Source: Acidobacteriaceae bacterium (GTDB taxonomy: Bacteria; Acidobacteriota; Terriglobia; Terriglobales; Acidobacteriaceae). From it: 35,347 nt of DNA. The notes beneath the pieces were generated by a model that worked only from the letters and a program-made list of their open reading frames with translations, searched no databases and was not told where the DNA came from. The DNA lies in NCBI GenBank assembly GCA_025360645.1, contig JANYBT010000019.1:1-35347 (forward strand), read 5' to 3'. This document shows positions 8,353 through 23,542 of the stretch, piece by piece; within the stretch, counting starts at the first letter, position 1; the number at the start of each line of letters is the position of its first letter. A program made the translations under genes and the position numbers.

Positions 8353-8372
8353 ACGAATAACAGGGGATGGCG

Positions 8373-8978
8373 ATGCAGTTCCACAATGCGATGAACTCCC
8401 TGGGAAGGCCCCACCTCCCGCCACCACTCATCACCGGCGGCGTCCACCAGCCTAGCGACCGCCAAGCCCTGCACACGCCCGTGCTCGTGCTCAACGCTTC
8501 CTATGAACCGATCAACGTCTGCGGCGCTCGTCGCGCCATCGTGCTGGTGCTGAAGGGCGTGGCCATGGCCGAAGAAGAAAACGGCCACTTCCTGCACGCC
8601 GCGCGGGTTGCGATTCGCGTCCCGTCTGTCATCCGCCTGCTGGAATACCGCCGCATCCCTCACCAGACCCGGGCTCTCTCGCGCAAGAACATCCTGCTGC
8701 GGGACCGCAACACCTGTCAGTACTGTGGCACTCTGCTGGCTGCCGGCGAACTCACCCTCGACCACGTCATCCCGCGTTCTCGCGGCGGCAATTCGTCCTG
8801 GGAGAACCTGGTCGCCTGCTGCCACAACTGCAATCGCAAGAAAGGGAACCAGCTTCCCCATGAGTCTGGCATGAAGCCCATGCGTGAGCCCCGCTCCTTC
8901 AATCTGCACACCAGCCGCCACATCATGCGCCTGATGGGCCACTCCGATGGCAAGTGGCGAAAGTATCTGTTTTATTGA
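8373..8978 (+). CDS. HNH endonuclease family protein
   Basis: About 201 residues. The C-terminal half is an HNH nuclease domain: C115-x2-C118 (CQYC), [13 protein letters not shown] with D130-H131, W143-E-N145 and C150-x2-C153 followed by NRKKGNQ, the zinc-supported beta-beta-alpha metal fold. The N-terminal half ([27 protein letters not shown]) matches the lead-in seen in the widespread McrA-like HNH proteins found next to housekeeping genes in many bacteria; their substrate is not established. Two in-frame ATGs compete: 8367 directly abuts AGGGG, while 8373 has it six bases upstream, so I choose 8373. It follows comF on the same strand, and a role with DNA uptake is possible but unproven. 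Confidence 0.88.
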
Positions 8979-9426: not shown

Positions 9427-9825
9427 TTAATTCGTGACGTTCGGGGCGGCGGGCGTAGCGGTCTGGGCGCGCCCGGTTTCAATGCGTTTGATGACCTGCC
9501 GCAACCACTCACGCAGGGAATCTTCCATTTCGGGCTGGGTGTATTGCCGCTTCATGCTGTCCACGGTTTCGCCGTGAGCGTTGATCGGGATGAAGTGGCA
9601 GGGAACATCTTCCGCCTTGTACTGGTCGGGCACGAAGTCATGCAGCAGGCATTCGTCGCAGGCGTGGGGCCGGTTGGGATCGCCAAAATTCGGGCATGAC
9701 AGCGAGTCCTGAAAAGCCGAAGTGGGCTTCCACGGAGTGTGCACCGAACGTCCGTAGCCACCCTGCTCCAGGAACTGCAATTCGAACTTCAAAACTTCTA
9801 AAACGTCGCGTCTGTCCTTTGACAT
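9427..9825 (-). CDS. Cysteine/histidine-rich protein of unknown function, 132 aa
   Basis: ATG 9823-9825 is preceded by GGGAGG with about eight bases spacing; an upstream frame extension exists but lacks such a site. The N-terminus is helical (RRDVLEVLKFELQFLEQGGYG), followed by a metal-site-like region with C44, H54, C56, C59, H62 and C76-H77, and a C-terminal helix (EMEDSLREWLRQVIKRIE). The spacing of the cysteines and the two CxxC/CH pairs suggest a metal or Fe-S site. I do not recognise the family beyond the impression that acidobacteria carry it. It diverges from the radical SAM gene and shares with it a 183-base region holding a perfect TGTGA-N6-TCACA palindrome, so the two may be co-regulated. 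Confidence 0.7.
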   Translation of the reverse strand: MSKDRRDVLEVLKFELQFLEQGGYGRSVHTPWKPTSAFQDSLSCPNFGDPNRPHACDECLLHDFVPDQYKAEDVPCHFIPINAHGETVDSMKRQYTQPEMEDSLREWLRQVIKRIETGRAQTATPAAPNVTN

Positions 9826-9916
9826 TGGTCCTACCTCCCGGCGGCGGTTCCCACCCCGTAGCCACGATTGTCCTGCAATGGAAAACCTCGCGGCTGTGAC
9901 CCCGAGCACCTGACCG

Positions 9917-9932
9917 TGTGAGCAAGGTCACA
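9917..9932. promoter_or_regulatory. CRP/FNR-superfamily-type operator, perfect TGTGA-N6-TCACA
   Basis: TGTGA at 9917-9921 and TCACA at 9928-9932 form the exact E. coli CRP consensus half-sites with the standard six-base spacer. The site lies between the divergent 132-aa gene and the radical SAM gene, centred about 84 bases upstream of the latter's ATG. A second, weaker TGTGA-N6-TCA lies at 9948-9961. Which regulator binds is not visible; none is encoded in the window. Confidence 0.6.
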
Positions 9933-9956
9933 CCGCACCGGTCGGGGTGTGACCTT
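9924..9956. repeat. Eleven-base inverted repeat overlapping the operator
   Basis: AAGGTCACACC (9924-9934) and GGTGTGACCTT (9946-9956) are perfect reverse complements separated by 11 bases. The left arm includes half of the TGTGA-N6-TCACA site and the right arm starts a second TGTGA half-site. It could be a pair of operator half-sites or an RNA hairpin in the leader. Confidence 0.75.
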
Positions 9957-10008
9957 AGTCATCGGCAGCGGGCTGCCCGACCTGCGATTCTGGCAGTGGA
10001 GGATGGTC

Positions 10009-11115
10009 ATGCAACCCAATCTGAACTTCGACGAGCGCCCCTTTATCGTCATCTGGGAAACAACCCAGGCTTGCGACTTGTCGTGCTTGCACTGCCGCGC
10101 CTGCGCCCAGTCGTTGCGCCACCCGCTGGAACTGAACACCGCCGAAGCCAAGCTTCTGATCGGCGAAGTGGCCGAATTGCAAGCCCCGGTGTTCGTTCTG
10201 ACCGGTGGCGATCCCCTCAAGCGCGATGACATTTTCGAGCTTGTCGACTACGCCACGCAACGCGGGGTGCGCATCTCGCTGACCCCCAGCGCGACCCCTC
10301 TGCTCACCCGTGACAAGCTCGCCGAGCTCAAGCAGCGCGGTCTGGCGCGGCTGGCCATCAGTTTGGATGGTCCGACTGCGGCTATTCACGACGCCTTCCG
10401 CCGCGTGAACGGTTCTTTTGACTGGACCCTGAATGCCGTGCGCTGGGCCCACGAACTCGGCCTGCCGGCGCAAATCAATACCACCATCACCCGCCACAAT
10501 CTTGCCCACCTCGACCCGATGATCGCCCTGATGGAAACTCTCGACATCGTATTGTGGAGCGTGTTCTTCCTGGTGCCCACAGGCCGGGGTTCCGCCGCAG
10601 ACTTGATCTCCGCCGAAGAATTCGAGCAAGTGTTTGCCAAGCTATACCAGACCGCGCAACACGCAAAGTTTGACATCAAAAGCACGGAAGCGCAGCATTA
10701 CCGCCGCTACGTTTTGCAGCGCCGCATCGAGGAGAAGAGAAAGGGAAACGCAGTCGCTCCAATGTTTGGTAGGAGCACCGCTGACGGCATCGGCCGCGCC
10801 CCCAAGGGCATCAACGACGGCAAGGGATTCGTTTTCATTTCCCATCTCGGCGAAGTTTTTCCCAGCGGGTTTCTGCCCGTTTCCGCCGGCAATATCCGCA
10901 AGCAATCCCTTGCCGACCTGTATCGCCATTCGCCGCTGTTCACCGGCCTGCGCGATAGCGCCAACCTGAAAGGGAAGTGTGCCGAGTGCGAGTTCCGCGA
11001 AGTCTGCGGCGGGTCGCGGGCGCGCGCCTACGCCCTGACCGGCGATATGTTCGCCGAAGAACCCTGCTGCGTGTGGCAGCCCACGCAGAGGTTCCGGGCG
11101 GCCCTCAGAGCTTGA
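10009..11115 (+). CDS. Radical SAM/SPASM protein, TIGR04053-like
   Basis: A 368-residue radical SAM protein. The cluster motif C22-x3-C26-x2-C29 (TQACDLSCLHCRAC) is followed by FVLTGGDPLKRDD (GGDP motif for SAM), ISLDG near the middle, and a C-terminal auxiliary-cluster region CAECEFREVCGGSRARAY...EEPCCVW typical of SPASM-like domains. The wording (NFDERPFIVIWETTQACDL, SVFFLVPTGRG, HYRRYVLQRR) matches what I know of the TIGR04053 family, whose substrate is unknown; some relatives act in peptide modification or heme-related steps. ATG 10009 has GGAGG six bases upstream, so I prefer it to earlier in-frame starts. No precursor peptide gene is visible beside it. Confidence 0.88.
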   Translation: MQPNLNFDERPFIVIWETTQACDLSCLHCRACAQSLRHPLELNTAEAKLLIGEVAELQAPVFVLTGGDPLKRDDIFELVDYATQRGVRISLTPSATPLLTRDKLAELKQRGLARLAISLDGPTAAIHDAFRRVNGSFDWTLNAVRWAHELGLPAQINTTITRHNLAHLDPMIALMETLDIVLWSVFFLVPTGRGSAADLISAEEFEQVFAKLYQTAQHAKFDIKSTEAQHYRRYVLQRRIEEKRKGNAVAPMFGRSTADGIGRAPKGINDGKGFVFISHLGEVFPSGFLPVSAGNIRKQSLADLYRHSPLFTGLRDSANLKGKCAECEFREVCGGSRARAYALTGDMFAEEPCCVWQPTQRFRAALRA

Positions 11116-11363
11116 GAGCATCGCCGCCCCCAAGGCCACGGCCGAAGTCCGGCTCTCCCCGGTCCGCCAGGGGCGCTGCTGTTGAGCTTTCGGCTTGCCG
11201 GAGCCTCGCCGCTGCTTTTCCACCGCACACCCCCCTGTGACTTGCCTCACGTCCTCAGGTAAGGCCAGTCACTGCCTTTCTTTTTCTAATCCCTTCTAAT
11301 GCAAATTGCGCAGGCTGTGCTGCGGCTTGCTGCGGACTCCAAGTTTCAGCAAAGGAAACGAAC
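11116..11363 (+). promoter_or_regulatory. Promoter region of the NADH-module operon
   Basis: A 248-base gap. Its left half shows nothing I can name. From 11236 it holds the CRP-like palindrome, then two possible -10 hexamers TCTAAT at 11285-11290 and 11295-11300, then AAGGA just before the ATG at 11364. The operator-to-start distance suits an activator binding upstream of RNA polymerase. Confidence 0.4.
11236..11251. promoter_or_regulatory. CRP/FNR-superfamily-type operator, TGTGA-N6-TCACG
   Basis: TGTGA at 11236-11240 and TCACG at 11247-11251, nine of ten consensus bases, 120 bases upstream of the first gene of the operon. It is the same palindrome as the one at 9917-9932, suggesting one regulator controls both units. 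Confidence 0.55.
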
Positions 11364-11600
11364 ATGAGCCACGAAGCCGTGAAGTGCCCATTGTGCGAAG
11401 GCCACGGAGAACTCTCGCCCTCACAACTGACCGAGCGGATCACGGATGAACGCCTGTCCGAGAAGTTGCACAGTTACTTGGACGCGCATAGGGAAGAGCC
11501 AGTGCTCGTCGGCGCCCCCAGCAGTCCGCGTACTTTCGACAAGGATGTTCATGGGTGGAACCCGCAACTGTCGATGTGGCGGCGGAGTTCCAAGGAATAA
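11364..11600 (+). CDS. Small CPLC-motif protein, 78 aa, first gene of the NADH-module operon
   Basis: A 78-residue protein starting MSHEAVKCPLCEGHGEL (C8-x2-C11, H14), a single zinc- or Fe-S-type knuckle, followed by a helical stretch (QLTERITDERLSEKLHSYL) and a conserved-looking tail DKDVHGWNPQLSMWRRSSKE. I recall similar short proteins in acidobacteria but no function. AAGGA lies eight bases before ATG 11364. It is 32 bases upstream of the NuoE-like gene, downstream of the CRP-like operator, and so appears to be the first cistron of the operon; a role as an assembly or regulatory partner is possible but unproven. Confidence 0.75.
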   Translation: MSHEAVKCPLCEGHGELSPSQLTERITDERLSEKLHSYLDAHREEPVLVGAPSSPRTFDKDVHGWNPQLSMWRRSSKE

Positions 11601-11632
11601 GGCGAACCACAAGCTAAGAAAAGGCGACTGCC

Positions 11633-12178
11633 ATGCCGCAATCTGAGTTGGGACAAATCGAACCGCTACTGCAAGAATTCGATAACACCCGGGCCAATCT
11701 CATCCCCATCCTGCAACAAATTCAGGCTACCTGTTCCTACCTTCCCCAGGAAGCCCTGCGGCGGGTAGCGCGCAAGTTGCAAGTGCCCCTGAGCGATGTG
11801 TACCAGGTCGCGACTTTCTACCGGTGCTTCAGTCTGAAGCCGCGAGGAAAGCATCTGGTGCAAGTTTGCCTGGGTACGGCCTGTCATGTGCGTGGTGGAC
11901 AGAAGGTGTTGGAGCGCACTCAGGTTGAAACTGGTGTGGATGCCGCGGGCACCAGCGCCGACATGCAGTTCACGGTCGAGGCCGTTCGCTGCCTGGGTTG
12001 TTGCGGTCTGGCGCCGGTCATGCGCGTGGACAAGACCACCTTCGCCCACGTGGAGCAAACCAAAGTTCGGGGTCTTTTGACTCGCTACCGGCCTCGCAAA
12101 CCTGCGACTTCCGAAGCGGAAAAGACCCCGGCGGTTCCCGCCGAATCAACCCTGGTGCACGGAGGCGACCATGCCTAA
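11633..12178 (+). CDS. NuoE/HydC-type 2Fe-2S thioredoxin-like subunit
   Basis: A 181-residue protein of the NuoE/HoxE/HydC family. An N-terminal helical domain (LLQEFDNTRANLIPILQQIQATCSYLPQEALRRVARKLQVPLSDVYQVATFY) leads into a thioredoxin-like 2Fe-2S domain with ligands C79-x4-C84 (CLGTAC) and C120-x3-C124 (CLGCC). The C-terminal tail beyond residue 150 is low in complexity. In complex I, NAD-linked hydrogenases and formate dehydrogenases this subunit relays electrons beside the FMN subunit. The stop overlaps the start of the next gene by eight bases (ATGCCTAA), which indicates translational coupling and a fixed subunit ratio. Only the NADH-input subunits of complex I are here, so this is not the housekeeping nuo operon. 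Confidence 0.92.
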   Translation: MPQSELGQIEPLLQEFDNTRANLIPILQQIQATCSYLPQEALRRVARKLQVPLSDVYQVATFYRCFSLKPRGKHLVQVCLGTACHVRGGQKVLERTQVETGVDAAGTSADMQFTVEAVRCLGCCGLAPVMRVDKTTFAHVEQTKVRGLLTRYRPRKPATSEAEKTPAVPAESTLVHGGDHA

Positions 12179-14090
12179 CCATGGCGCGTATCCTCTTCGT
12201 AGTCTGGAAGACCTGCAAGCGGTGGCCGAGCTTGGCCGCCAACGCATCTCTCCCGCCCAACCCAAAATCATGATCGGCATGGCGACCTGCGGACAGGCAG
12301 CCGGCGCAACCGAAGTTCTGGAAGCCGTGCGCGAAGTCGTGGCCCAGGACAAGCTGCCCTATGTGGTTTCCGAAACCGGCTGCATCGGCTGGTGTTCGCA
12401 AGAGCCCCTGCTGGATATCTGCATTCCCGGACGTCCCCGTGTTACCTACGGACGCGTCACCCCTGCCCGTGCCAGGCAAATCATCCGTGCCCTGCCTGAG
12501 CCGAAACCTCAGTGGGCATTAGCCACCATGCCCGGCGACGAGAACACTCTCACCGGGTACTACACCAGCTATCTCGCCGGCGAGGATACCCCTCTTCGCG
12601 GCGTCAAGTCTTACCGTGACTTGCCTCTTTTCAAGCGCCAGTTGCGCATCGTCATGCGCAATTGCGGTCTGATCGATCCAGCCAGCTTCGAAGAGTACAT
12701 TGCGCGCGGCGGCTACACTGCTCTCTGGCAAGCCCTGCGCACTCAGACTCCGCAGCAGGTGGTCGACGGTGTAACCAAAAGCGGCATTCGCGGTCGCGGC
12801 GGTGCGGGATTTCCCACTGGAAGAAAGTGGCAGACGGTTCGCGAAGCTCCCGGTAGTCCGAAATACGTCATCTGCAATGCCGACGAGGGCGATCCCGGCG
12901 CCTACATGGACCGCGGCGTGCTCGAAGGCGATCCCCACAGCGTGCTCGAAGGCATGACCATTGGCGCCTATGCCATGGGCGCAAGCGAAGGCATCATCTA
13001 CGTTCGCGAAGAATATCCCCTTGCAGTCGCGCGCATGAAAGATGCGATCCGCCAATCTGAAGTTGCCGGGCTCCTGGGTGCGAACATTTTCGGCTCGGGG
13101 TTCGGCTTTACCGTCCGCGTTGTCACCGGAGCGGGTGCCTTTGTCTGCGGCGAAGAAACCGCACTCATTCGCTCGATTGAGGGAAAAGTTGGGGAACCGC
13201 AGCAGCGCCCGCCGTATCCCGCTGTCCGCGGCCTCAACGGTAAACCCACCTGCATCAACAATGTGGAAACCTGGGCGAATGTCCCGGTCATCATCGCTCG
13301 CGGCGGCGAGTGGTTCGCCTCCATCGGCACCCCAGGCAGTAAAGGCACCAAAGTCTTCAGCCTGGTCGGCAACATCGAAAACACAGCCCTGATCGAAGTC
13401 CCCATGGGCACCACCCTCGCCGAAATCGTGTACGAAATCGGCGGTGGCATCCCCGGCAACCGTGAGTGCAAAGCCATCCAGACCGGCGGCCCTTCCGGGG
13501 GCTGCATTCCCGCAAGCAAGTTCAATCTGCCCGTGGATTACGACTCCCTCACCGCAGCCGGCTCCATCATGGGCTCCGGTGGCATGATCGTCATGGACGA
13601 CCACACCTGCATGGTGGACATCGCCAAGTATTTCCTCGGCTTTCTGGAAGATGAGAGTTGCGGGAAGTGCTTCTCCTGTCGCGAAGGCACCCAGCGACTC
13701 AAAGAGATTGTCCAGCGCATCTCCGAAGGCCACGGGGTAGACGAAGATTTGGTTCTGCTCGAGGAATTAAGTTGGATGGTGCGCGAAGTCTCTCTCTGCG
13801 GCCTGGGACAAACTGCGGCCAATCCCGTGCTCTCCACTCTGCGCTACTTCCGCGAGGAGTATCTGGAGCACATCCACCACCAGCGCTGTCCGGCCAAGGT
13901 TTGCCGCCAGCTCATCACGTTTGCCATTGATCCAGTAACCTGCAACGGCTGTGGAGCTTGCGTCCAAGTTTGCAGCGGCAAGGCCATTCTGGGCGAAAAA
14001 AATAAACTGCACACCATCGAACAAGCCCATTGCACCAAGTGCGGCGCTTGCATGGACATCTGCAAGTTCGATGCAGTAACGGTCAATTAA
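12171..14090 (+). CDS. HydB/NuoF-type NADH-binding flavoprotein with extra Fe-S domains
   Basis: A 639-residue protein with the HydB/HndC domain order. Residues 30-110 form a thioredoxin-like domain keeping C40, C71 and C75, one cysteine short of the usual four. The NuoF core has the NADH loop GRGGAGFPTGRKW (208-220), the FMN/NADH motif NADEGDPGAYMDR (237-249) and the 4Fe-4S ligands C497-x2-C500-x2-C503 plus C543. Then comes HIHHQRCPAKVC (H567, C573, C578), which resembles the zinc-site region of HydB proteins. The tail is a two-cluster ferredoxin: C591/C594/C597/C601 and C621/C624/C627/C631. This build is that of electron-bifurcating HydB/BfuB-type subunits and not of plain complex I. GGAGG is five bases before the ATG. 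Confidence 0.92.
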   Translation: MPNHGAYPLRSLEDLQAVAELGRQRISPAQPKIMIGMATCGQAAGATEVLEAVREVVAQDKLPYVVSETGCIGWCSQEPLLDICIPGRPRVTYGRVTPARARQIIRALPEPKPQWALATMPGDENTLTGYYTSYLAGEDTPLRGVKSYRDLPLFKRQLRIVMRNCGLIDPASFEEYIARGGYTALWQALRTQTPQQVVDGVTKSGIRGRGGAGFPTGRKWQTVREAPGSPKYVICNADEGDPGAYMDRGVLEGDPHSVLEGMTIGAYAMGASEGIIYVREEYPLAVARMKDAIRQSEVAGLLGANIFGSGFGFTVRVVTGAGAFVCGEETALIRSIEGKVGEPQQRPPYPAVRGLNGKPTCINNVETWANVPVIIARGGEWFASIGTPGSKGTKVFSLVGNIENTALIEVPMGTTLAEIVYEIGGGIPGNRECKAIQTGGPSGGCIPASKFNLPVDYDSLTAAGSIMGSGGMIVMDDHTCMVDIAKYFLGFLEDESCGKCFSCREGTQRLKEIVQRISEGHGVDEDLVLLEELSWMVREVSLCGLGQTAANPVLSTLRYFREEYLEHIHHQRCPAKVCRQLITFAIDPVTCNGCGACVQVCSGKAILGEKNKLHTIEQAHCTKCGACMDICKFDAVTVN

Positions 14091-14100
14091 GGAGAATGCC

Positions 14101-14835
14101 GTGCCCACGTTAACCATGAACGGCATCACGGTGGAAGTCGAGCGCGGCACCACGCTGTTGGAAGCCGCGCAGTTCCTCGGTCTTCCCATTCCCACTCTCT
14201 GCCACGAAGACGGCCTCGCCCCCTACGGCGGTTGCCGCTTATGCGTGGTCGAAGTGGTCAACGGTGCAAAGAAGAGTCTGCAGTCGTCGTGCACCTATCC
14301 CGCGCTGGATGGCTTGCAGGTCTTTACGCATTCCGCGCGAGTCGAGAAAGCCCGCCGCCTGTTGGTAGAACTCTACGTTGCCACCTGCCCGCAGTCCAAG
14401 CGCATTCAGGATCTGGCGTCCGCGATGGGTGTGCGCCAGGTGCGCTATGACGCCAAACACGAGCACTGCATCCAGTGCGGGCTGTGCGTTCGCATGTGCG
14501 AGCAGCAGATGATGGCCGGCGCCATCGGCTTTTCCGGTCGCGGTCTGCATCGCGAAGTCACTCGCCCTTTCGATACCACGAGCGATACTTGCCGCCAATG
14601 CGGAGCCTGCCTCTACATCTGTCCGGTGTGCGAGTTGCGCTGCGCTGGGCCTGACGCGGAAAGCACCCTGTGCAACGGGTGTCTGAATATTTCCACCGCG
14701 TGTTTCCAGACTTACGACAACGCCATGTGTTCTTTGGATCCCTGTCACGCCTGCGAGATTGACGGTCCGTTCCGCGCCGACGTGCGAGTGAAATTGCAAC
14801 CCCAAATCGAGTTTCCAGTTTTAGCCAAGAAATAG
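14101..14835 (+). CDS. HoxU/NuoG-N-type Fe-S protein with Cys-rich tail
   Basis: A 244-residue electron-transfer subunit starting on GTG 14101 with AAGGAG well placed before it. The first 80 residues are a plant-type 2Fe-2S ferredoxin fold with C34, C45, C48 and C64. Next are two 4Fe-4S motifs, C123-x2-C126-x2-C129-x3-C133 and C164-x2-C167-x2-C170-x3-C174. The NuoG-type His/Cys cluster between them appears absent. The last 70 residues add eight more cysteines (C177, C181, C191, C194, C201, C210, C215, C218), not found in ordinary HoxU as far as I know. There is no molybdopterin or hydrogenase domain, so it acts as a wire between the flavoprotein and another partner, probably the FMN protein encoded next. 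Confidence 0.88.
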   Translation: MPTLTMNGITVEVERGTTLLEAAQFLGLPIPTLCHEDGLAPYGGCRLCVVEVVNGAKKSLQSSCTYPALDGLQVFTHSARVEKARRLLVELYVATCPQSKRIQDLASAMGVRQVRYDAKHEHCIQCGLCVRMCEQQMMAGAIGFSGRGLHREVTRPFDTTSDTCRQCGACLYICPVCELRCAGPDAESTLCNGCLNISTACFQTYDNAMCSLDPCHACEIDGPFRADVRVKLQPQIEFPVLAKK

Positions 14836-14848
14836 TGGAGAGACTGCC

Positions 14849-16432
14849 ATGACTTTTACACGCTTGAATTCTTCCGCCGCTACCCTGACCAAGAACCGCA
14901 CCGAGGATTCCGTCAGCCCTTTCAGCGGCATGTGCACAACCTGCGTCGATGGCTGCATCGGCATGTGCGAGATCGGCAAAAGCGCCTATCGCGGCGCCGA
15001 GATGATCTATCCGCAACCCTTCGGCATCATTACCACGGCTTCCCAGAAGGATTACCCGGTAGATCTCTCTCACTTCACCATCCTGGGACGCGCCGCCGGC
15101 GTCTGGGGGATAGAAGAGGACTCCAACCGCGCTCTGTTCCCGGCCGTCGATCTTGAAACCACCATCGGTGCGGATAACAGCATCCACTACAAACTGCCGT
15201 TTACTCTTGCAGCCATGGGCTCCACCAATGTCGCCAAGAACAACTGGGCCGGCATTGCGGGCGGCGCCGCCATCACCGGCACCGGCATCGCCATCGGCGA
15301 GAACGTGGTCGGCATGGACATGGACGCCAAATTCGACAATGGCAAAGTCATCACCAGCGCCGAACTCGAGTGGCGCATCCAGTGCTTCCGCGAGTGGCAG
15401 ACCGAAGGCTACGGCGAAGTCTTTGTCCAGGCCAACGTCGAAGACACCATGCTCGGCGTGCAGGAATATGCCATCAAAAAACTGGGAGTGACTGCCGTCG
15501 AACTGAAGTGGGGCCAGGGCGCAAAAGACATTGGTGGCGAAGTCAAGGTCAAGGACCTGGCGAAAGCCCAGGAACTGCATCGTCGCGGCTATGTGGTGCT
15601 CCCCAATCCCACCAACCCCGTGGTAATTGAGGCCTTCAACAAAGGTGCCTTCCACGAGTTCGAGCGTCATTCGCGCGTTGGCATGGTCACCAAAGATGGC
15701 TTCATGAAGCGGGTCGAAGACTTGCGCAAAGCGGGCGCAAAGTACATCACCCTCAAGACCGGCGCATACCGGCCCGTGGACCTGGCGCGTGCGGTACGCT
15801 TCGCCTCCCTGGCCAGACTGGACCTGCTCACCGTGGACGCGGCGGGCGGCGGCACTGGCATGAGCCCGTGGCGCATGATGAACGAGTGGGGCATTCCGCA
15901 AGTGGAAATCCACTCCTTGCTGCACGGCTATCTCGACAACCTGGCGAAACGCGGCGAATACGTTCCACCTATCGCCCTGGCCGGCGGCTTCACCTTCGAA
16001 GATCAAATCTTCAAGGGCTTCGCCCTCTGCGCTCCCTATGTGAAACTCATTGCCTGGGCGCGCGGCCCGCTCGCCGCCGCCATGGTTGCCAAGAACATCG
16101 GCAAGGCCATCGAAAATCAGCAACTGCCCATCTACATTGAGCGCTTCGGCACCACCGTGGACGAGATTTTTGTCTCCTCCACCGAATTGCATGAGCGCTT
16201 TGGCGACCGCTTCAAAAAGTTGCCTACCGGCGCCATCGGCTTCTACACCTACTACCAGCGGGTGGCTCAAGGTTTGCGCCAACTGATGGCGGGTGCGCGC
16301 AAATTCGGCTGCAAGTACATTGACCGGTCTGACATTGCGGCACTGACTCCCGACTCCTCGCGCATCAGCGGCATCCCGCTGGTCACCGACGTGGACAAGG
16401 AAGAAGCCGAGGCGATTCTCGCACTGGTGTAA
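14849..16432 (+). CDS. FMN-binding glutamate-synthase-like protein
   Basis: A 527-residue protein of the glutamate synthase central/FMN domain family (COG0069-like). An N-terminal motif C29-x2-C32-x3-C36-x3-C40 (CTTCVDGCIGMC) probably binds an Fe-S cluster. The TIM barrel follows, with VELKWGQGAKDIGGEV, ITLKTGAYRPVDLARAV and LLTVDAAGGGTGMSPWRMMNEWGIP, the phosphate and FMN-binding strands of the family. Missing are the glutaminase domain of GltB and the 3Fe-4S motif (C-x5-C-x4-C) normally after the barrel; at that place the sequence reads ALCAPYVKLIAWARGPLAAAM. No gltD is nearby. GGAGAG precedes ATG 14849 and only 13 bases separate it from the HoxU-like gene. Glutamate synthesis is possible but the substrate is not proven. 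Confidence 0.85.
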   Translation: MTFTRLNSSAATLTKNRTEDSVSPFSGMCTTCVDGCIGMCEIGKSAYRGAEMIYPQPFGIITTASQKDYPVDLSHFTILGRAAGVWGIEEDSNRALFPAVDLETTIGADNSIHYKLPFTLAAMGSTNVAKNNWAGIAGGAAITGTGIAIGENVVGMDMDAKFDNGKVITSAELEWRIQCFREWQTEGYGEVFVQANVEDTMLGVQEYAIKKLGVTAVELKWGQGAKDIGGEVKVKDLAKAQELHRRGYVVLPNPTNPVVIEAFNKGAFHEFERHSRVGMVTKDGFMKRVEDLRKAGAKYITLKTGAYRPVDLARAVRFASLARLDLLTVDAAGGGTGMSPWRMMNEWGIPQVEIHSLLHGYLDNLAKRGEYVPPIALAGGFTFEDQIFKGFALCAPYVKLIAWARGPLAAAMVAKNIGKAIENQQLPIYIERFGTTVDEIFVSSTELHERFGDRFKKLPTGAIGFYTYYQRVAQGLRQLMAGARKFGCKYIDRSDIAALTPDSSRISGIPLVTDVDKEEAEAILALV

Positions 16433-17535: not shown

Positions 17536-17949
17536 CTAGTGCTCTTCCGAAACATAATTTCGGTTCCACGCCGGAATCTCCACCACCACTTTCCCCGGCT
17601 TGGTAATCACCGCCTGGCACCCCAGTCGCGAATTGAGCTGCAGATCCGCCGCGGTGTCGAGCCGGTCCGCTTCATCGTCTTCCATGGGCGAGAGATTTTC
17701 CGCGCCTTCCTTCACCCAGATGTGGCAAGTCGTGCACGCATTATTGCCGCCGCAGGCGTGGTCCAGTTTGACGTGGTGATTGAGCGCCACATCCAGCACG
17801 GACTGCTCTTTGCCGTGATACTCATATGGCATCTTGCCATGCTCGAAACAGACCGTCTTGCCCTCAGGCTGGAAAGTCACTTCAATCGTATTTTCCTCCG
17901 GCGCATCCACCGTCGCGGCCCCTGCGCCCTGCATTTGTTCGTCAGCCAT
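17536..17949 (-). CDS. fdx: ISC-type 2Fe-2S ferredoxin
   Basis: A 137-residue adrenodoxin/ISC-type ferredoxin with the ligands C66-x5-C72-x2-C75 and C111 (CGGNNACTTC ... GC), the spacing of Fdx from isc operons. Characteristic stretches: VLDVALNHHVKLDHACGG, CHIWVKEGAENLSPMEDDEADRLD and SRLGCQAVI. The first 20 residues are an acidic/Ala-rich extension. It supplies electrons for cluster assembly on IscU in the cytoplasm. ATG 17947-17949 has AGGAG five bases upstream; an ATG six codons earlier is less likely. It lies between hscA (60 bases upstream) and iscX. Confidence 0.93.
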   Translation of the reverse strand: MADEQMQGAGAATVDAPEENTIEVTFQPEGKTVCFEHGKMPYEYHGKEQSVLDVALNHHVKLDHACGGNNACTTCHIWVKEGAENLSPMEDDEADRLDTAADLQLNSRLGCQAVITKPGKVVVEIPAWNRNYVSEEH

Positions 17950-18009
17950 AGTGACTCCTAAATTCATTTACCAACCTCGGGACATCCCAAGCCACGGGGA
18001 ACCCTGATC

Positions 18010-19908
18010 CTACTCAAACTCGGCTTCGGCCATAGGATGCGGTGCGGTGGGCCCTTCGCCCACGCCCGTATCGTTCATGTTCTTGCCCTTCAACGCCGTG
18101 GTGACCGCGCCATCCATCATCAGCTCCGCCAGGCGCATGGTCGCCTGATTGAGCGTTTCAATGCCCTTCAAAATCGCCTGGTAGTCGCTGCCCGCCTTGA
18201 CCGCAATCAGCGCTTTTTCCAGCTTGCCGATCTGCTTCCGCTCGTCGGTACGCAATTGCGCCCAGACGGCATTCGCCTTGGCTTTCTCCAGCGCCCCGAG
18301 AATCGTGTCGGCTTCGCGCTGCGCTTCAATCACCTGGCGCTGGCGAAAGTCTTCCTCCGCATAGTCGAACGAATCCAGTATCATGCTCTCGACCTGGTCG
18401 TCAGTGAGCCCGTAGCTGGGTTGCACCTCGATCTCCGCTTCCTTGCCGCTGCGCTGCTCGCGCGCTGAAACATGCAGAATCCCGTTCGCATCAATAAGAA
18501 ATTTCACTTCAATCCGCGGCATGCCAGCCGACATCGGAGGAATGCCTTTAAGATCAAACCGCGCCAGCGACCGGCAGTCTTTTGCCAATTCGCGTTCGCC
18601 CTGCAACACGTGAATCGCGACGTTCGCCTGGCCGTCCACCTGCGTCGTATAGTGCTGCGTGGCGGAAGCCGGGATGGTCGAATTGCGCAGAATAATCTTG
18701 TCAGTCACCCCGCCCGCCACTTCGATGCCCAGCGAAAGAGGCGTCACATCCAGCAACAACATGTTCTCAGTCGCCACCGACCCGCCGCTCAGAATGTTCG
18801 CTTGTACCGCCGCGCCGAGAGCGACCACTTCATCGGGATTCAGATCGATGTGCGGCTCGCGCTGGAACAGTTCTTTCACCAGTTGCCTTACCTTCGGAAT
18901 GCGCGTAGACCCGCCCACCAGCACCACTTCATCAATCTGTTCCGGCTTCAGGCCGGCGTCTTTCAGCGCTTGCTTGCACGGGCCCACCGTGCGGTCCAGC
19001 ACCGGCTGAACCAGTTGCTCAAACATCTCACGGGTGATTTCGCGCTGGTAGCGGTGGCCTCCCGGAAGCTCCACGTCCAGGTGGGTAGTGGCCTGCGACG
19101 AGAGCGCGATCTTGGCTTCGATGACCGCCTTGCGGATCGTCTGCACCGCTTCCCCACTGCGTCGCACCTCGATCCCCATGTCGCCCTTTACGTCGTCCAG
19201 CGCAATCGCGATCAGCAGGTTGTCGATATCGTCACCGCCCAGGTGAGTATCGCCATTGGTCGAGATGACTTCGAAGATGCCATCGTGCAATTTGAGGATC
19301 GAAACATCGAAGGTCCCGCCGCCCAGGTCGTACACCGCGACGATACCGTTCTTCTTTTTGTCGAGCCCGTATGCCAGCGAGGCCGCGGTGGGTTCATTCA
19401 CCAGCCGCAAAACTTCCAGTCCGGCAATGCGGCCTGCGTCTTTCGTCGCTTGCCGCTGGGCATCGTTGAAGTAGGCGGGCACTGTCACCACCGCCTTGGT
19501 GACGGCCTCGCCAAAGAAGCGTTCCGCGTTGCGCTTCAACTGGCGCAGGATCAACGCCGAAATCTCCGGCGGAGTGTAGCTTCTTTCTCCCAGTTGGATG
19601 CGGAGCACCTCGCCCGCCTGCATATCATCGGCCAGCCGAAACGGGAACAGCTTCAATTCCTCCGTGATATCTTCCGCGCCGCGGCCCATCAGCCGCTTCA
19701 CGGAATAGATCGCTCGCTCCGGAGTTTCGATCAGAAAGTTGCGCGCCGCATTCCCAATGATGGTGTGGTTCCCGCCATCCAGAGCCACGATGGAAGGCAC
19801 CAGGTTCGAGCCATCCTCGCCAGGAATCACTACGGGCGTCTCCCCCTCCATGAACGCGACCAGCGAGTTCGTGGTGCCCAGATCGATTCCAACAATGCGG
19901 TCAGACAT
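18010..19908 (-). CDS. hscA: HscA, Fe-S assembly Hsp70 chaperone
   Basis: A 632-residue Hsp70 protein. The ATPase domain shows GIDLGTTNS (7-15), TVPAYFND (142-149), NEPTAA (171-176) and DLGGGTFD (194-201); the substrate domain starts near residue 390 ([17 protein letters not shown]). Operon position between hscB and fdx identifies it as HscA and not DnaK; HscA releases clusters from IscU by binding the LPPVK motif, which IscU here retains. The C-terminal lid is followed by a short tail without the DnaK EEVD-like acidic end. Forty-eight bases separate it from hscB. Confidence 0.94.
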
Positions 19909-19956
19909 AAGAAAATTTGCAATTTCGCAATCGGGTCATTAGATTACCCGATTGGA

Positions 19957-20700
19957 TTACCCGATTTCCAAAGCTTCGTTCACGTCCCTCACCAGGTTAC
20001 GAATGTAATTTCTGCGATTGACCAGATCCAGCAGCTTGTCCCGAATCGGCAGACGAGCCGGCTCCGTTTCGCTCTCCACCGCCTGGTCCCACTCACTCCA
20101 CAAGCCCTTGAGTTCACTGAACAGCGCGTCGAATTTTTCTTCCAGCAACTTCTTCTGTCCGCTCAACTCGGCTTCCAGCGCGTCGTCTTTTTCGCCCATC
20201 TTCCGGTTTGCCCGTAGCTCTTCCAGTTGCATGTTAAGCTCAAAGACTTCTTCCAGCAGCGCCGGAGGCACCACTTGCTTCTTTAAGTTGCCGCTGGCTC
20301 GAGCCGCTTCCGTCGCTTGTTTCGATTGTTCTTCCAGCTCCACTCCTTCCAGTCGCAACAGATACTCGGTGCGCCGGATCGGGTCTTTCAAGGTGCGATA
20401 GGCATCGTTCAACTGCGAGCTCTGTTCCAGACTCCACAGGCGCTCCACTTCGGAAGCGCTAAAAAATCCATCCGGATGCAAGCGACGGCTCAGCGCGTAG
20501 AACTCTTTTTCCAATCCATTCAGATCGACGTTGAGTTTTCGCGGCAAACCGAAAAATGTGAAGTAATCTACTGGCATCGCGGGCTGCACCTTGCCGCAGG
20601 CATTGCAGAAATGTGCGGCTCGCATGGTTCCGCACGACCAGCAACTCGAGGTAATATCCCCCGGCAAGATTACCGACGAATTGGAAGTGATTTCAGCCAT
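19957..20700 (-). CDS. hscB: HscB J-domain co-chaperone with N-terminal zinc finger
   Basis: A 247-residue co-chaperone. Residues 20-35 carry C20-x2-C23 and C32-x2-C35 (CWSC...CNAC), a zinc-binding extension seen in eukaryotic HSC20 but absent from E. coli HscB. The J domain follows (DYFTFFGLPRKLNVDLNGLEKEFYALSRRLHPD, HPD at 75-77), then the three-helix IscU-binding domain (about 140-247), longer and more charged than usual. HscB delivers IscU to HscA and stimulates its ATPase. The start at ATG 20698-20700 is needed to include the zinc finger. It lies between iscA and hscA. Confidence 0.93.
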   Translation of the reverse strand: MAEITSNSSVILPGDITSSCWSCGTMRAAHFCNACGKVQPAMPVDYFTFFGLPRKLNVDLNGLEKEFYALSRRLHPDGFFSASEVERLWSLEQSSQLNDAYRTLKDPIRRTEYLLRLEGVELEEQSKQATEAARASGNLKKQVVPPALLEEVFELNMQLEELRANRKMGEKDDALEAELSGQKKLLEEKFDALFSELKGLWSEWDQAVESETEPARLPIRDKLLDLVNRRNYIRNLVRDVNEALEIG

Positions 20701-20710
20701 ACGAAATTAA

Positions 20711-20789
20711 GGGGCGGACGCAGCGCCCGCCCCAGGTCCTGCCCATTTGAGGTGCGTGGCGGGCCCCCGCAGCCGTCGCTTCGGGCCCG
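20711..20789. other. Two GC-rich hairpins between iscA and hscB
   Basis: GGGGCGG (20711-20717) pairs with CCGCCCC (20727-20733), and CGGGCCC (20760-20766) pairs with GGGCCCG (20783-20789). Neither has a T-run on the minus strand, so they are more likely mRNA stability or processing elements than terminators. Confidence 0.5.
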
Positions 20790-20802
20790 TCGGTTGCGGG
20801 TT

Positions 20803-21198
20803 CTAGCCTGAGAACGAACTGCCGCATCCGCACGACTTGCTGGAATTCGGGTTCACGAAGACAAAGCCCTGCTGCATCAGCGTCTCTTGATAATCGAGCA
20901 CCATGCCGTGCAGGTAGATGAACGACTTCGGATCCACGAACACCCGCACATCGTCGAACTGAAACACCCGGTCTCGCTCTCGCGGTTGGGTATCGAAACG
21001 AATGTTGTAGCTTAGCCCCGAGCACCCTCCGCCCTGCACCCCGAGACGCAAGCCGCCCTGGTCTGAAGAAACGCCTTCCTTCGCCATGGCCGTGCGCACC
21101 TTGGACAGGGCTTTGTCTGTGATCTGCAGGCCTTTGGCCGGCGCGGCTGATACTGCGGGTTTGATTGCAAGTTCCATAGCTTCTCGAACCATCTGCAT
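20803..21198 (-). CDS. iscA: IscA-type A-type carrier protein
   Basis: A 131-residue A-type iron-sulfur carrier. The three conserved cysteines are present: C59 in GGGCSGLSY and C123/C125 in SCGCGSSF. The core LQITDKALSKVRTAMAKEG and LRLGVQGGGCSG are family-typical. It accepts and passes on clusters or iron downstream of IscU. About 22 residues (Ala/Pro-rich) precede the domain. ATG 21196-21198 has AGGA nearby; ATG 21175-21177, seven codons in, is an alternative start. It lies between iscU and hscB, the canonical order. Confidence 0.93.
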   Translation of the reverse strand: MQMVREAMELAIKPAVSAAPAKGLQITDKALSKVRTAMAKEGVSSDQGGLRLGVQGGGCSGLSYNIRFDTQPRERDRVFQFDDVRVFVDPKSFIYLHGMVLDYQETLMQQGFVFVNPNSSKSCGCGSSFSG

Positions 21199-21253
21199 GA
21201 GTCCTGAGGACGAACCCCTGGCTTAAGGCTCGCGTCCCCGCAACCCTGGCTGT

Positions 21254-21667
21254 TTACTTCGCTGCCATTTCCGCGGTAACGCCGACGCCCTGTTTTTTCT
21301 TCCAGTCGCCGATCGCCGCACGGATGGCGTCTTCCGCCAATACCGAGCAGTGAATTTTCACCGGAGGAAGCGCCAGCTCCTTCACGATTTCCGTGTTTTT
21401 GATCTGCAGGGCTTCATCAATCGTTTTGCCCTTCACCCACTCCGTCGCCAGTGACGACGAAGCGATGGCCGATCCGCAGCCGAACGTTTTGAACTTCGCA
21501 TCTTCAATCACGTTGGTCAGCGGGTTGACCTTGATCTGCAGCTTCATCACGTCGCCGCACTCGGGCGCGCCGACCAGGCCGGTGCCCACATCTGTGCTCG
21601 CTTTGTCCATCGAGCCCACGTTGCGGGGGTTGGAGTAATGATCGAGAACCTTATCGCTGTATGCCAT
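21254..21667 (-). CDS. iscU: IscU, iron-sulfur cluster scaffold
   Basis: A 137-residue scaffold protein with all cluster ligands: C37 and D39 (PECGDVM), C64 (FGCGSAIASSS), H106 and C107 (KIHCSVLAED), plus the LPPVK motif (100-104) recognised by HscA. This is the IscU form, not NifU or SufU: there is no NifU C-terminal domain and no SufU insertion. Clusters are built here from IscS sulfur. Start ATG 21665-21667 has AGGAG at a slightly long spacing. The gap to iscS, 130 bases, is filled by GAAACT repeats. Confidence 0.95.
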   Translation of the reverse strand: MAYSDKVLDHYSNPRNVGSMDKASTDVGTGLVGAPECGDVMKLQIKVNPLTNVIEDAKFKTFGCGSAIASSSLATEWVKGKTIDEALQIKNTEIVKELALPPVKIHCSVLAEDAIRAAIGDWKKKQGVGVTAEMAAK

Positions 21668-21723
21668 ATCTTTCAGTCTCCTAAAGTCTGTAGATCTTGA
21701 GCCTTGAATTTCTTGTTGTTGCT

Positions 21724-21794
21724 ACTTGAAACTTGAAACTCGAATCTCTCGAAACTAGAAGTTCTTGAAACTTGAAACTAGAAACTAGAAACTG
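21724..21794. repeat. GAAACT-type repeat array between iscS and iscU
   Basis: Seven- to nine-base units (CTTGAAA, CTCGAA, CTAGAAA) repeat about nine times, for example TTGAAACTTGAAACTCGAA and CTTGAAACTTGAAACTAG. The same wording recurs at 23953-23981 upstream of the MoxR gene. Confidence 0.85.
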
Positions 21795-21797
21795 TTC

Positions 21798-23072
21798 TCA
21801 GTGTCCCGCCGGCTCTGCTGCCCACTTCACCGACTTCAAATCAATGCCCTCTTTCGCCATCTCGTAGAGCGGCGACAATTCGCGCAACCGGGTCACCGTA
21901 TCCACCAGTCGGTCCGCCACGTAGTCCACTTCCGCCTCGGTATTGAACCGTCCCAGCCCGAAGCGGATCGAACTGTGCGCCAGATCGTCGCCCGTGCCCA
22001 GCGCCTTCAACACATACGAGGGTTCCAGCGTCGCCGAGGTGCAAGCCGATCCGCTGGAAACCGCAATGTCGTTGATCCCCATCAGCAGCGACTCGCCTTC
22101 CACATACGCGAAGCTGATGTTCAGGTTCCCCGGAAGCCGGTGCTCCATCGACCCGTTGATGTAGGTCTCGTCCAGTCGGCCCATGATCCGGTCGCGCAAC
22201 CGATTGCGCAATCCCGCCAGCTTGCAGGCTTCCTTCGCCATCTCTTCCGACGCGATAGCACAAGCCTTGCCCAAGCCCACAATGCCCGGAACATTCAGCG
22301 TGCCTGACCGCATCCCGCGCTCGTGCCCGCCACCGTCAATCAAGGGTGACAACTGCACTCGCGGATTCTTGCGACGCACGTACAGCGCGCCCACTCCCTT
22401 GGGACCGTAAATCTTGTGCGCCGTGATGGACGCCAGGTCGATGTTCATCTTGTTCACATCGATCGGCACTTTCCCCACTGCCTGCACTGCATCGGTGTGG
22501 AACAACACGCCGCGTTCGTGGCACAACTTCCCAATCTCCTCGATCGGCTGCAGAATGCCAATCTCGTTGTTCGCCGCCATGATGCTTACCAGGATGGTCT
22601 TGTCATCCATGGCTCGCTTCAGGTCCTCGAGGTCGATCAGGCCGTCCTTCTGCACCGGCAAATAGGTCACGCGATAGCCATACTTCTCCAGCCGCTTGCA
22701 GGTATCAAGCACCGCCTTGTGCTCGGTCACTTCCGTAATGATGTGATTGCCCTTCTCGCGGTACATCTCGGCCACGCCCTTGATGGCCAGGTTGTTGCTC
22801 TCGGTGGCGCCCGAGGTGAAGATGATCTCTTTCGCCGTCGCGCCAATCAGCTTGGCGATCCGTTCCCGCGCCGTCTCCACCGCCGCTTCCGCCACCCATC
22901 CAAACGGATGGTTGCGGCTTGCCGAGTTGCCGAACTTCTCCACAAAATAGGGCAGCATTTCTTCCAGTACGCGCGGATCCATCGGCGTGGTCGCGTGGTT
23001 GTCCATGTAAATCGGCAACCGGATGCCGTTGGCGGTGGTGGTGAACTCCATCTCGTTTACTTCGGTGCCCAT
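21798..23072 (-). CDS. iscS: IscS cysteine desulfurase
   Basis: A 424-residue PLP enzyme that takes sulfur from L-cysteine and hands it to IscU as persulfide. PLP-binding and catalytic features: [13 protein letters not shown] near the start, GATESNN (88-94), the Schiff-base lysine K220 in [11 protein letters not shown], and the active-site loop [14 protein letters not shown] with C344. The length and C-terminus ([18 protein letters not shown]) are those of the IscS group. The frame is open further upstream, but that part overlaps iscR in another frame; ATG 23070-23072 with GGAG nine bases before it, 17 bases after the iscR stop, is the sensible start. Confidence 0.95.
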
Positions 23073-23089
23073 AATTGCTGTCTCCAGAA

Positions 23090-23542
23090 TTAAGAAATCA
23101 TCACGTAGTCCGCCAGCTGCTTGGTTTCTACCATTTCCGGCTCTTCTCTCATGTGTGCGATGCGAATCCGCTTCAACACCTCTTCGATACTCTGGTTCAC
23201 CTTGCGCAGCGGCTCGCGCACCGTGCAGCGCAAGCTCTGCCCGCATTCCCCCCGCAGCGTCGTGCAAGAAGTAATAAACAGCGGTCCATCAATCGCCTGA
23301 ATTACTTCGTACGCCGAAATCGAGTGCGGATCGCGAGCCAGTCGGTAGCCGCCTTTGATTCCACATTGCGATTCCAGCAATCCCGCCCGCATCAGCCGCT
23401 GCAGGATCTTGGCCAGCGCTTGCGGCGGAATCCCGTAAGCATCGGCAATGTCTTTTGCACTCAGCGCCTCGCGGTCCACATGCTCGGCCAGATGCTTCAT
23501 CGCCATCAAACCGTAATCCGCTTTTTTAGTCAGCTTGAGCAT
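23090..23542 (-). CDS. iscR: IscR, Rrf2-family Fe-S regulator
   Basis: A 150-residue Rrf2-family winged-helix regulator. The N-terminus ([21 protein letters not shown], then [23 protein letters not shown]) is the recognition domain, followed by the wing (KGGYRLAR) and the cluster ligands C93, C100 and C106. The histidine that is the fourth ligand in E. coli IscR (H107) is not at the matching place (CTVREP), so the fourth ligand may differ. In this family holo-IscR represses the operon and apo-IscR acts elsewhere. First gene of isc. The start region is duplicated in tandem (23522-23577), no good ribosome site precedes ATG 23540-23542, and a short leader frame overlaps it. Confidence 0.92.

Follow-up and report, generated by a model that had tools for sequence, protein, structure and literature searches.

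The palindromes of the form TGTGA-N6-TCACA found between genes of an acidobacterial contig are probably operators, as predicted from comparative sequence analysis, of a low-oxygen energy regulon common to the acidobacterial family concerned, and the most likely regulator is a clade of little-studied, cysteine-bearing Crp/Fnr proteins represented by P0001. The window (the whole stretch of DNA analysed, 35,347 nucleotides) carries two regions that would belong to this regulon: a divergent pair of genes, for a cysteine-rich 132-aa protein and a radical SAM protein, and an operon of five genes beginning with a 78-aa ORF followed by NuoEF-, HoxU- and GltB-like genes (Table 1). A P0001-type protein would read the TGTGA half-sites through a CRP-like recognition helix, and an Fe-S or other metal centre on its cysteines would probably sense oxygen or redox state. 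Its dimers would bind the three sites between the 132-aa and radical SAM genes as well as the site 5' of the operon, and transcription of both regions would change as oxygen falls. That the proteins bind, what they sense, whether they activate or repress, and which paralog serves which site are inferred.

Table 1. Genes and putative operators of the two regions of the window
Feature	Position	Strand	Remarks
132-aa cysteine-rich protein gene	9427..9825	-	ORF; divergent from radical SAM gene
Weak operator-like site TGTGACCCCGAGCACC	9895-9910	.	2 mismatches; counterpart in L103
Perfect palindrome TGTGAGCAAGGTCACA	9917-9932	.	0 mismatches; intergenic
Operator-like site TGTGACCTTAGTCATC	9948-9963	.	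2 mismatches; counterpart of conserved radical SAM site
Radical SAM/SPASM protein, TIGR04053	10003..11115	+	487 bits, cut-off 395; start ATG 10003 or 10009
Palindrome TGTGACTTGCCTCACG, 5' of operon	11236-11251	.	1 mismatch to perfect palindrome; intergenic; position kept in family operons
78-aa ORF, first operon gene	11364..11600	+	No family match (Pfam, NCBIfam); ~120 bp from centre of 11236 site
NuoE/HoxE-like 2Fe-2S thioredoxin-like subunit	11633..12178	+	PF01257
NuoF-like subunit, C-terminal 4Fe-4S clusters	12171..14090	+	PF01512, PF10589, Fer4
HoxU/HydA-N-terminus-like subunit (2Fe-2S + 4Fe-4S)	14101..14835	+	PF13510, Fer4_7; NF040763, NF005745 below cut-off
GltB-like FMN-domain protein, last operon gene	14849..16432	+	PF01645; gene order same in relatives

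A previous reading of this DNA, made from sequence only, had singled out the 9917 and 11236 palindromes, and both are found exactly where it placed them, between genes; its estimate that 0.1-0.3 such matches would be expected by chance in a window of this length is fair under equal base frequencies. Its two palindromes are real, but it overlooked the weaker 9895 and 9948 sites in the same intergenic region as the first. Between the start of the 132-aa gene and that of the radical SAM gene lie 183 bp, which hold three matches of two mismatches or fewer, their successive starts 22 and 31 bp apart. Relative L103, with the same two genes in divergent orientation, has three similarly arranged matches: the spacing of the first two is 22 bp in both genomes (the L103 counterpart of the 9895 site, 22 bp from the middle site, having one mismatch), and the third is found 31 bp further on in the window and 36 bp further on in L103. 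When ten upstream regions are aligned, the conserved TGTGACATYAGTCAYA block of close orthologs matches the 9948 site, not the 9917 site.

The window by itself is weak proof, since a loose search of it (at most two mismatches) found 12 matches against 11.6 expected, which is no excess. A scan for sigma-70-type promoters found none, against 0.2 expected. Terminator-like structures totalled 3, against a shuffled mean of 2.1, the sole plus-strand match in 9820-11640 being at 11261-11278. This last was rejected as a terminator of the radical SAM gene, because the AGTCACTGCC/AATCACTGCC block after the 11236 site is also present 5' of the operon in relatives L196 and L197, whose printed DNA has no comparable T run.

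Random scatter of the motif across the genome, which the sequence-only reading had named as the outcome that would count against it, is not what a genome-wide search gave. In the 3.82-Mb genome, TGTGAN6TCACR was matched 31 times on the forward and 29 times on the reverse strand, which makes 37 distinct places, and a reversed-pattern control 1 and 3 times (4 strand hits). All but two of these places (35/37) are intergenic according to a heuristic ORF caller, whose intergenic fraction is 0.142 on the same loci, themselves picked around sites. The spacer is biased, with C or T at position 6 in 34 of the 37 places, G at position 7 in 22 and C at position 10 in 19. Perfect palindromes number 23 genome-wide versus 1 for the control, an excess that drops to 96 versus 41 when one mismatch is allowed; the 59 other genomes of the family hold 604 perfect palindromes versus 41, and 134 genomes outside it 317 sites versus 53, with a P0001 match at E <= 1e-40 in only 7 (the one-mismatch, family and phylum figures are whole counts). 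That the sites behave like Crp/Fnr-type operators, as these comparisons of sequence suggest, is supported.

Sites are also kept upstream of relatives of the radical SAM gene and of the NuoEF operon, where the same reading had proposed that they be sought. The radical SAM set consists of the best 80 of 162 confirmed relatives, the named records being mostly metagenome-assembled genomes of Acidobacteriaceae or Terriglobia, and 78 of these loci were counted (L060, with too short an upstream region, and L086, with none, being excluded). The best match within 300 bp had no mismatch in 10 of the 78, one in 19 and at least two in 49; matches with at most one mismatch were thus found in 29/78 promoters and in none with the reversed control, which gave two mismatches in 2 cases and never fewer.

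Relatives of the operon were found at 23 loci (a 42% identical G287 match is not included), 19 of which could be assessed, L143, L144, L146 and L205 having no assessable upstream DNA. All 12 assessable operons of the family have a site, with one mismatch in 9 and two in 3; it lies 86-177 bp 5' of the 78-aa ORF or, in L203, in which this ORF was not found, 394 bp 5' of nuoE. The reversed control yielded a single match there, with two mismatches. Seven operons of other families were assessable: L142 has a one-mismatch site, L150 a two-mismatch match at -429, and five have none. The site 5' of the NuoEF operon is therefore a trait of this family, whose members are related and not independent. The GltB-like gene of the operon occurs in 13/200 genomes of the class and 16/300 of the family (own genome included), and at 11 of the 23 loci a relative of the 78-aa ORF (30-46% identity) stands in front of nuoE.

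The clearest target appears to be cydA, which encodes a subunit of bd oxidase. A perfect palindrome lies within 300 bp upstream in 20/30 loci (own included; the 30 are taken from 46 listed matches, which fall in 41/60 genomes), versus a reversed control that never came below three mismatches. In the genome of the window, genes adjoining sites include those for PFOR (TIGR02176), a porphobilinogen synthase fragment, a CydA-type oxidase subunit, a NapH-like ferredoxin protein and RibD, along with cytochromes c, a CcsB-type cytochrome c assembly protein, an FTR1/EfeU iron permease, MqnE (menaquinone) and a LolD-like ATPase. On contig C128, sites adjoin the gene of a hydrogenase maturation protease and that of another radical SAM protein (AhbD-like), after which come multihaem cytochrome genes. 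The PFOR, RibD, MqnE, FTR1 and protease matches exceed curated cut-offs; those of the HemB fragment, CydA, NapH, LolD and AhbD are below NCBIfam cut-offs and rest on similarity. Some site neighbours (glycyl-tRNA synthetase, UDP-sugar dehydrogenase, TonB-type outer-membrane proteins) have, by eye, no evident low-oxygen role. In Acidobacterium capsulatum, transcripts of cydA (PMC8407424, PMC11636273) and also of por (PMC11636273) are higher at low oxygen; the main text of neither paper contains the string 'crp' or 'fnr'. The low-oxygen or redox link suggested by the sequence-only reading agrees with many of the genes that adjoin sites, but the signal sensed is a presumption.

Seven HTH_Crp_2 matches are found in the genome, six of them above cut-off. 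P0001, on contig C128 (69.9 bits versus a cut-off of 27, with no NCBIfam match reaching its cut-off), forms one clade with two other full-length proteins, on C145 (59% identical) and C86 (48%), and all three have C-x2-C-x8-C near the start. We compared 30 clade loci, taken from a longer list of P0001 matches. All 30 full clade sequences have RE[TS]V[TS]R as their recognition helix, and C13, C16, C25 and C64 are cysteines in every one. Upstream of the P0001 gene there are three sites with at most one mismatch within 350 bp; such a site is present at 21/30 clade loci, perfect in 14, and absent from 9 (raw counts, without reversed control).

Site density across 60 genomes of the family tracks the best P0001 match (Spearman 0.63, kinship ignored), with 3.99 sites/Mb where there is a close P0001 ortholog, 1.96 with a distant one and 1.07 with none. 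The last value is the mean of 9 genomes in which P0001 has no match at E <= 1e-20 and compares with ~0.12 for the control; the three genomes free of sites have no P0001 match at this threshold. Since sites occur in genomes with no P0001 match and outside the family, other regulators must read the same palindrome.

A second candidate is B, a protein encoded elsewhere in the genome of the window (L036:4961-5680, contig C128) that has no N-terminal cysteine cluster. In a quite conceivable alternative, although one that we do not favour, two regulators would share look-alike sites, B acting on the radical SAM gene via the 9948 site and the P0001 clade on the NuoEF operon and most other targets. 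In 32/80 loci the radical SAM gene has a B ortholog (54-78% identical to own B) as a divergent neighbour at most 500 bp away, and the B helix, VRELVSR, retains R-E-x-V-x-R, so that either B or the P0001 clade, or the two together, may act on the radical SAM promoter. The radical SAM loci with B as a neighbour are L047, L049, L051, L054, L055, L066 and 26 more. Close orthologs with and without B also share the spacer CATYAG or CTTTGG, unlike most sites of the own genome and of cydA. On the other hand, own B sits on another contig than the window, many radical SAM loci have the site but no adjoining B, and two loci, L110 and L115, instead have a P0001-type gene (frameshifted in L115) near the 132-aa and radical SAM genes, which favours the P0001 clade at the radical SAM locus in those two cases. 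The single CRP/FNR regulator of the sequence-only reading was right in kind, but that there is only one finds no support, given three paralogs in the P0001 clade and B with its similar helix.

If the P0001 clade is the main regulator, its C-x2-C-x8-C and a fourth cysteine, in place of a recognisable cAMP pocket, make sensing of oxygen or redox state probable. We consider it unlikely that the same clade, acting at the same operators, would instead respond to nitric oxide or nitrosative stress, the signal suggested for HcpR-like regulators; bd oxidase is also tied to NO resistance, and a gene for the Fe-S repair protein RIC is present in the C128 cluster. The operator is moreover the same as that of Desulfovibrio HcpR (PMC545781). 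Against a nitric oxide signal, bd oxidase is the site neighbour in most cydA loci examined, the recognisable targets are mainly PFOR, haem, menaquinone and cytochrome genes, and cydA goes up at low oxygen in A. capsulatum, as cited above.

A classical cAMP-CRP carbon regulon seems very improbable. The palindrome is identical to the CRP operator of E. coli, and a structure model of relative L110 (first 12 residues with pLDDT < 50) matches both CRP and FNR structures, the best Foldseek matches and nearest solved relatives of the clade being cAMP-binding CRPs. In alignment, however, the pocket region of the clade reads GEVLGLSASVSGKAYELTAET where the cAMP-binding CRP of M. tuberculosis has a Glu and an Arg, residues which serve the cAMP pocket of CRP. 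The cyclic-AMP regulon was rejected on these replaced pocket residues together with the set of recognisable targets, which is respiratory. Chance, for which only the lack of excess in the two-mismatch search of the window speaks, is contradicted by the genome-wide, family-wide and promoter-conservation controls and has next to no credibility as an explanation of the palindromes.

The P0001 clade has a further peculiarity. In 16 of its 30 loci, a paralog of 162-172 aa that ends after the dimerisation helix is encoded 3' of the regulator on the same strand, with 114-361 bp between the matched stretches of the two; these comprise 15 of the 17 loci with an ortholog at least 70% identical, plus L170. 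The own short paralog is L036:11043-11537 (contig C128), the 15 others being among L153-L170. No second HTH is found in the 16 loci, bar a weak match on the other strand (E 0.54), so that the short paralogs do not have the look of recently decayed full-length genes. The equivalents of C13, C16, C25 and C64 are all kept in 13/16, and median pN/pS is 0.37 for 13 short paralogs (the pairs exclude L166, L168 and L170) versus 0.12 for their full-length counterparts from the same genomes; the short paralog appears to be under purifying selection, weaker than that on the full-length regulator. A one-mismatch site lies 33-44 bp before the start in 7/16 short paralogs; the own one has no site within 350 bp upstream. 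We tentatively suggest, as a possibility that sequence alone makes attractive but still rather doubtful, a two-protein switch in which the four-cysteine regulator and its HTH-less paralog form non-binding dimers that tune or damp the low-oxygen response, C13, C16, C25 and C64 being a metal site whose fourth ligand is placed otherwise than in FNR. No Crp/Fnr protein lacking its DNA-binding domain is reported in the literature searched (RegPrecise and subscription papers were outside the search).

As to the putative targets in the window, searches of Pfam and NCBIfam with the 132-aa protein gave nothing at E <= 0.001. Relatives divergent from and 5' of the radical SAM gene are found in 5/80 loci (with two copies in L110), and cysteine columns C44, C56, C59 and C76 are invariant in 7 sequences; its AlphaFold model is all-helical (pLDDT 82) and has no PDB match with E <= 0.001. 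Also 5' of the radical SAM region is an HNH endonuclease-like gene (8367-8978; HNH_5 and HNH Pfam matches), relatives of which, 73-75% identical, lie ~3-4 kb 5' of the radical SAM gene in 7/80 loci (L111, L114, L117, L118, L124, L125 and L126).

The operon has the domains of a known class of electron-bifurcating enzymes, BfuABC: PF01512, PF10589 and Fer4 in NuoF, PF01257 in NuoE, and PF13510 and Fer4_7 in the HoxU-like protein, if the InterPro names of the BfuABC definition are taken to correspond to these Pfam names; SLBB is marginally below cut-off (26.1 vs 27). By the domain definition of BfuB, BfuC and BfuA (PMC9304861), the NuoE-, NuoF- (with extra 4Fe-4S) and 2Fe-2S/4Fe-4S subunits fit the BfuABC list. 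Unlike BfuABC, the window operon ends with a GltB-like FMN protein, and neither 'glutamate synthase' nor 'gltb' occurs in the main text of that paper; Sporomusa-type Nfn has a GltD-like, not a GltB-like, part (PMC7483475). It is plausible from its domains that at low oxygen the operon product takes part in the chemistry of NAD(H) and ferredoxin, and 11633-16432 possibly encodes an undescribed third-substrate type of bifurcating enzyme. Further along the window (17536-23542), minus-strand ORFs resemble an Isc Fe-S assembly cluster (IscR, IscS, IscU, IscA, HscB, HscA and ferredoxin), judged by eye from their translations.

Taken together, the logic of the regulon seems ordinary. The cysteine set of its putative regulator is unusual, and the putative partner devoid of a DNA-binding domain is puzzling. 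Acidobacteriota count among the most abundant bacteria of soils. Cultured acidobacterial strains respire at nanomolar oxygen (PMC8407424). From this analysis come an operator that can be put to the test, a candidate for its regulator and a list of putative targets for the low-oxygen response of an abundant phylum, while the conserved HTH-less relative of the regulator might serve as a built-in damper. The titles and abstract openings searched (RegPrecise and subscription papers lying outside) name no acidobacterial Crp/Fnr regulon, which is not to claim its absence from print.

Among known systems, HcpR of Desulfovibrio is a Crp/Fnr-family regulator that reads TTGTGAnnnnnnTCACAA 5' of energy-metabolism genes, and Arg180 of its helix has been tied to CRP-like signals and operator (PMC545781). 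Its operator shares the TGTGA-N6-TCACA core with the sites described here, the comparison being of the core only. The main conserved targets of HcpR are hcp and frdX, with sulfate-reduction genes; here those recognised among the site neighbours would be genes for bd oxidase, PFOR, haem and cytochromes. ArcR of Staphylococcus aureus is described as an oxygen-sensitive regulator, and the paper on it contains the string TGTGA (PMC5452487); its likeness to the P0001 clade, as compared here, is one of description. Like FNR of E. coli and Aliivibrio fischeri, the P0001 clade has the Crp/Fnr fold, an N-terminal cysteine cluster and anaerobic-type targets. The FNR operator, TTGAT-N4-ATCAA, is unlike the TGTGA-N6-TCACA of the sites here, and the spacing of the clade cysteines, C-x2-C-x8-C, differs from that of FNR as well. 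C112, which by eye we take to be at the position of E. coli FNR C122, is a cysteine in 17/30 clade members (and in the own C145 and C86 paralogs), versus 30/30 for C64. With CRP the clade shares the R-E-x-V-x-R helix, the operator and the best structural matches; unlike CRP, it lacks the pocket residues, possesses the cysteine set and would control respiratory genes. With a Crp-type C-terminal HTH after a cNMP-type beta-roll, and a palindromic predicted operator 5' of its putative targets, it has what is expected of a member of the Crp/Fnr superfamily.
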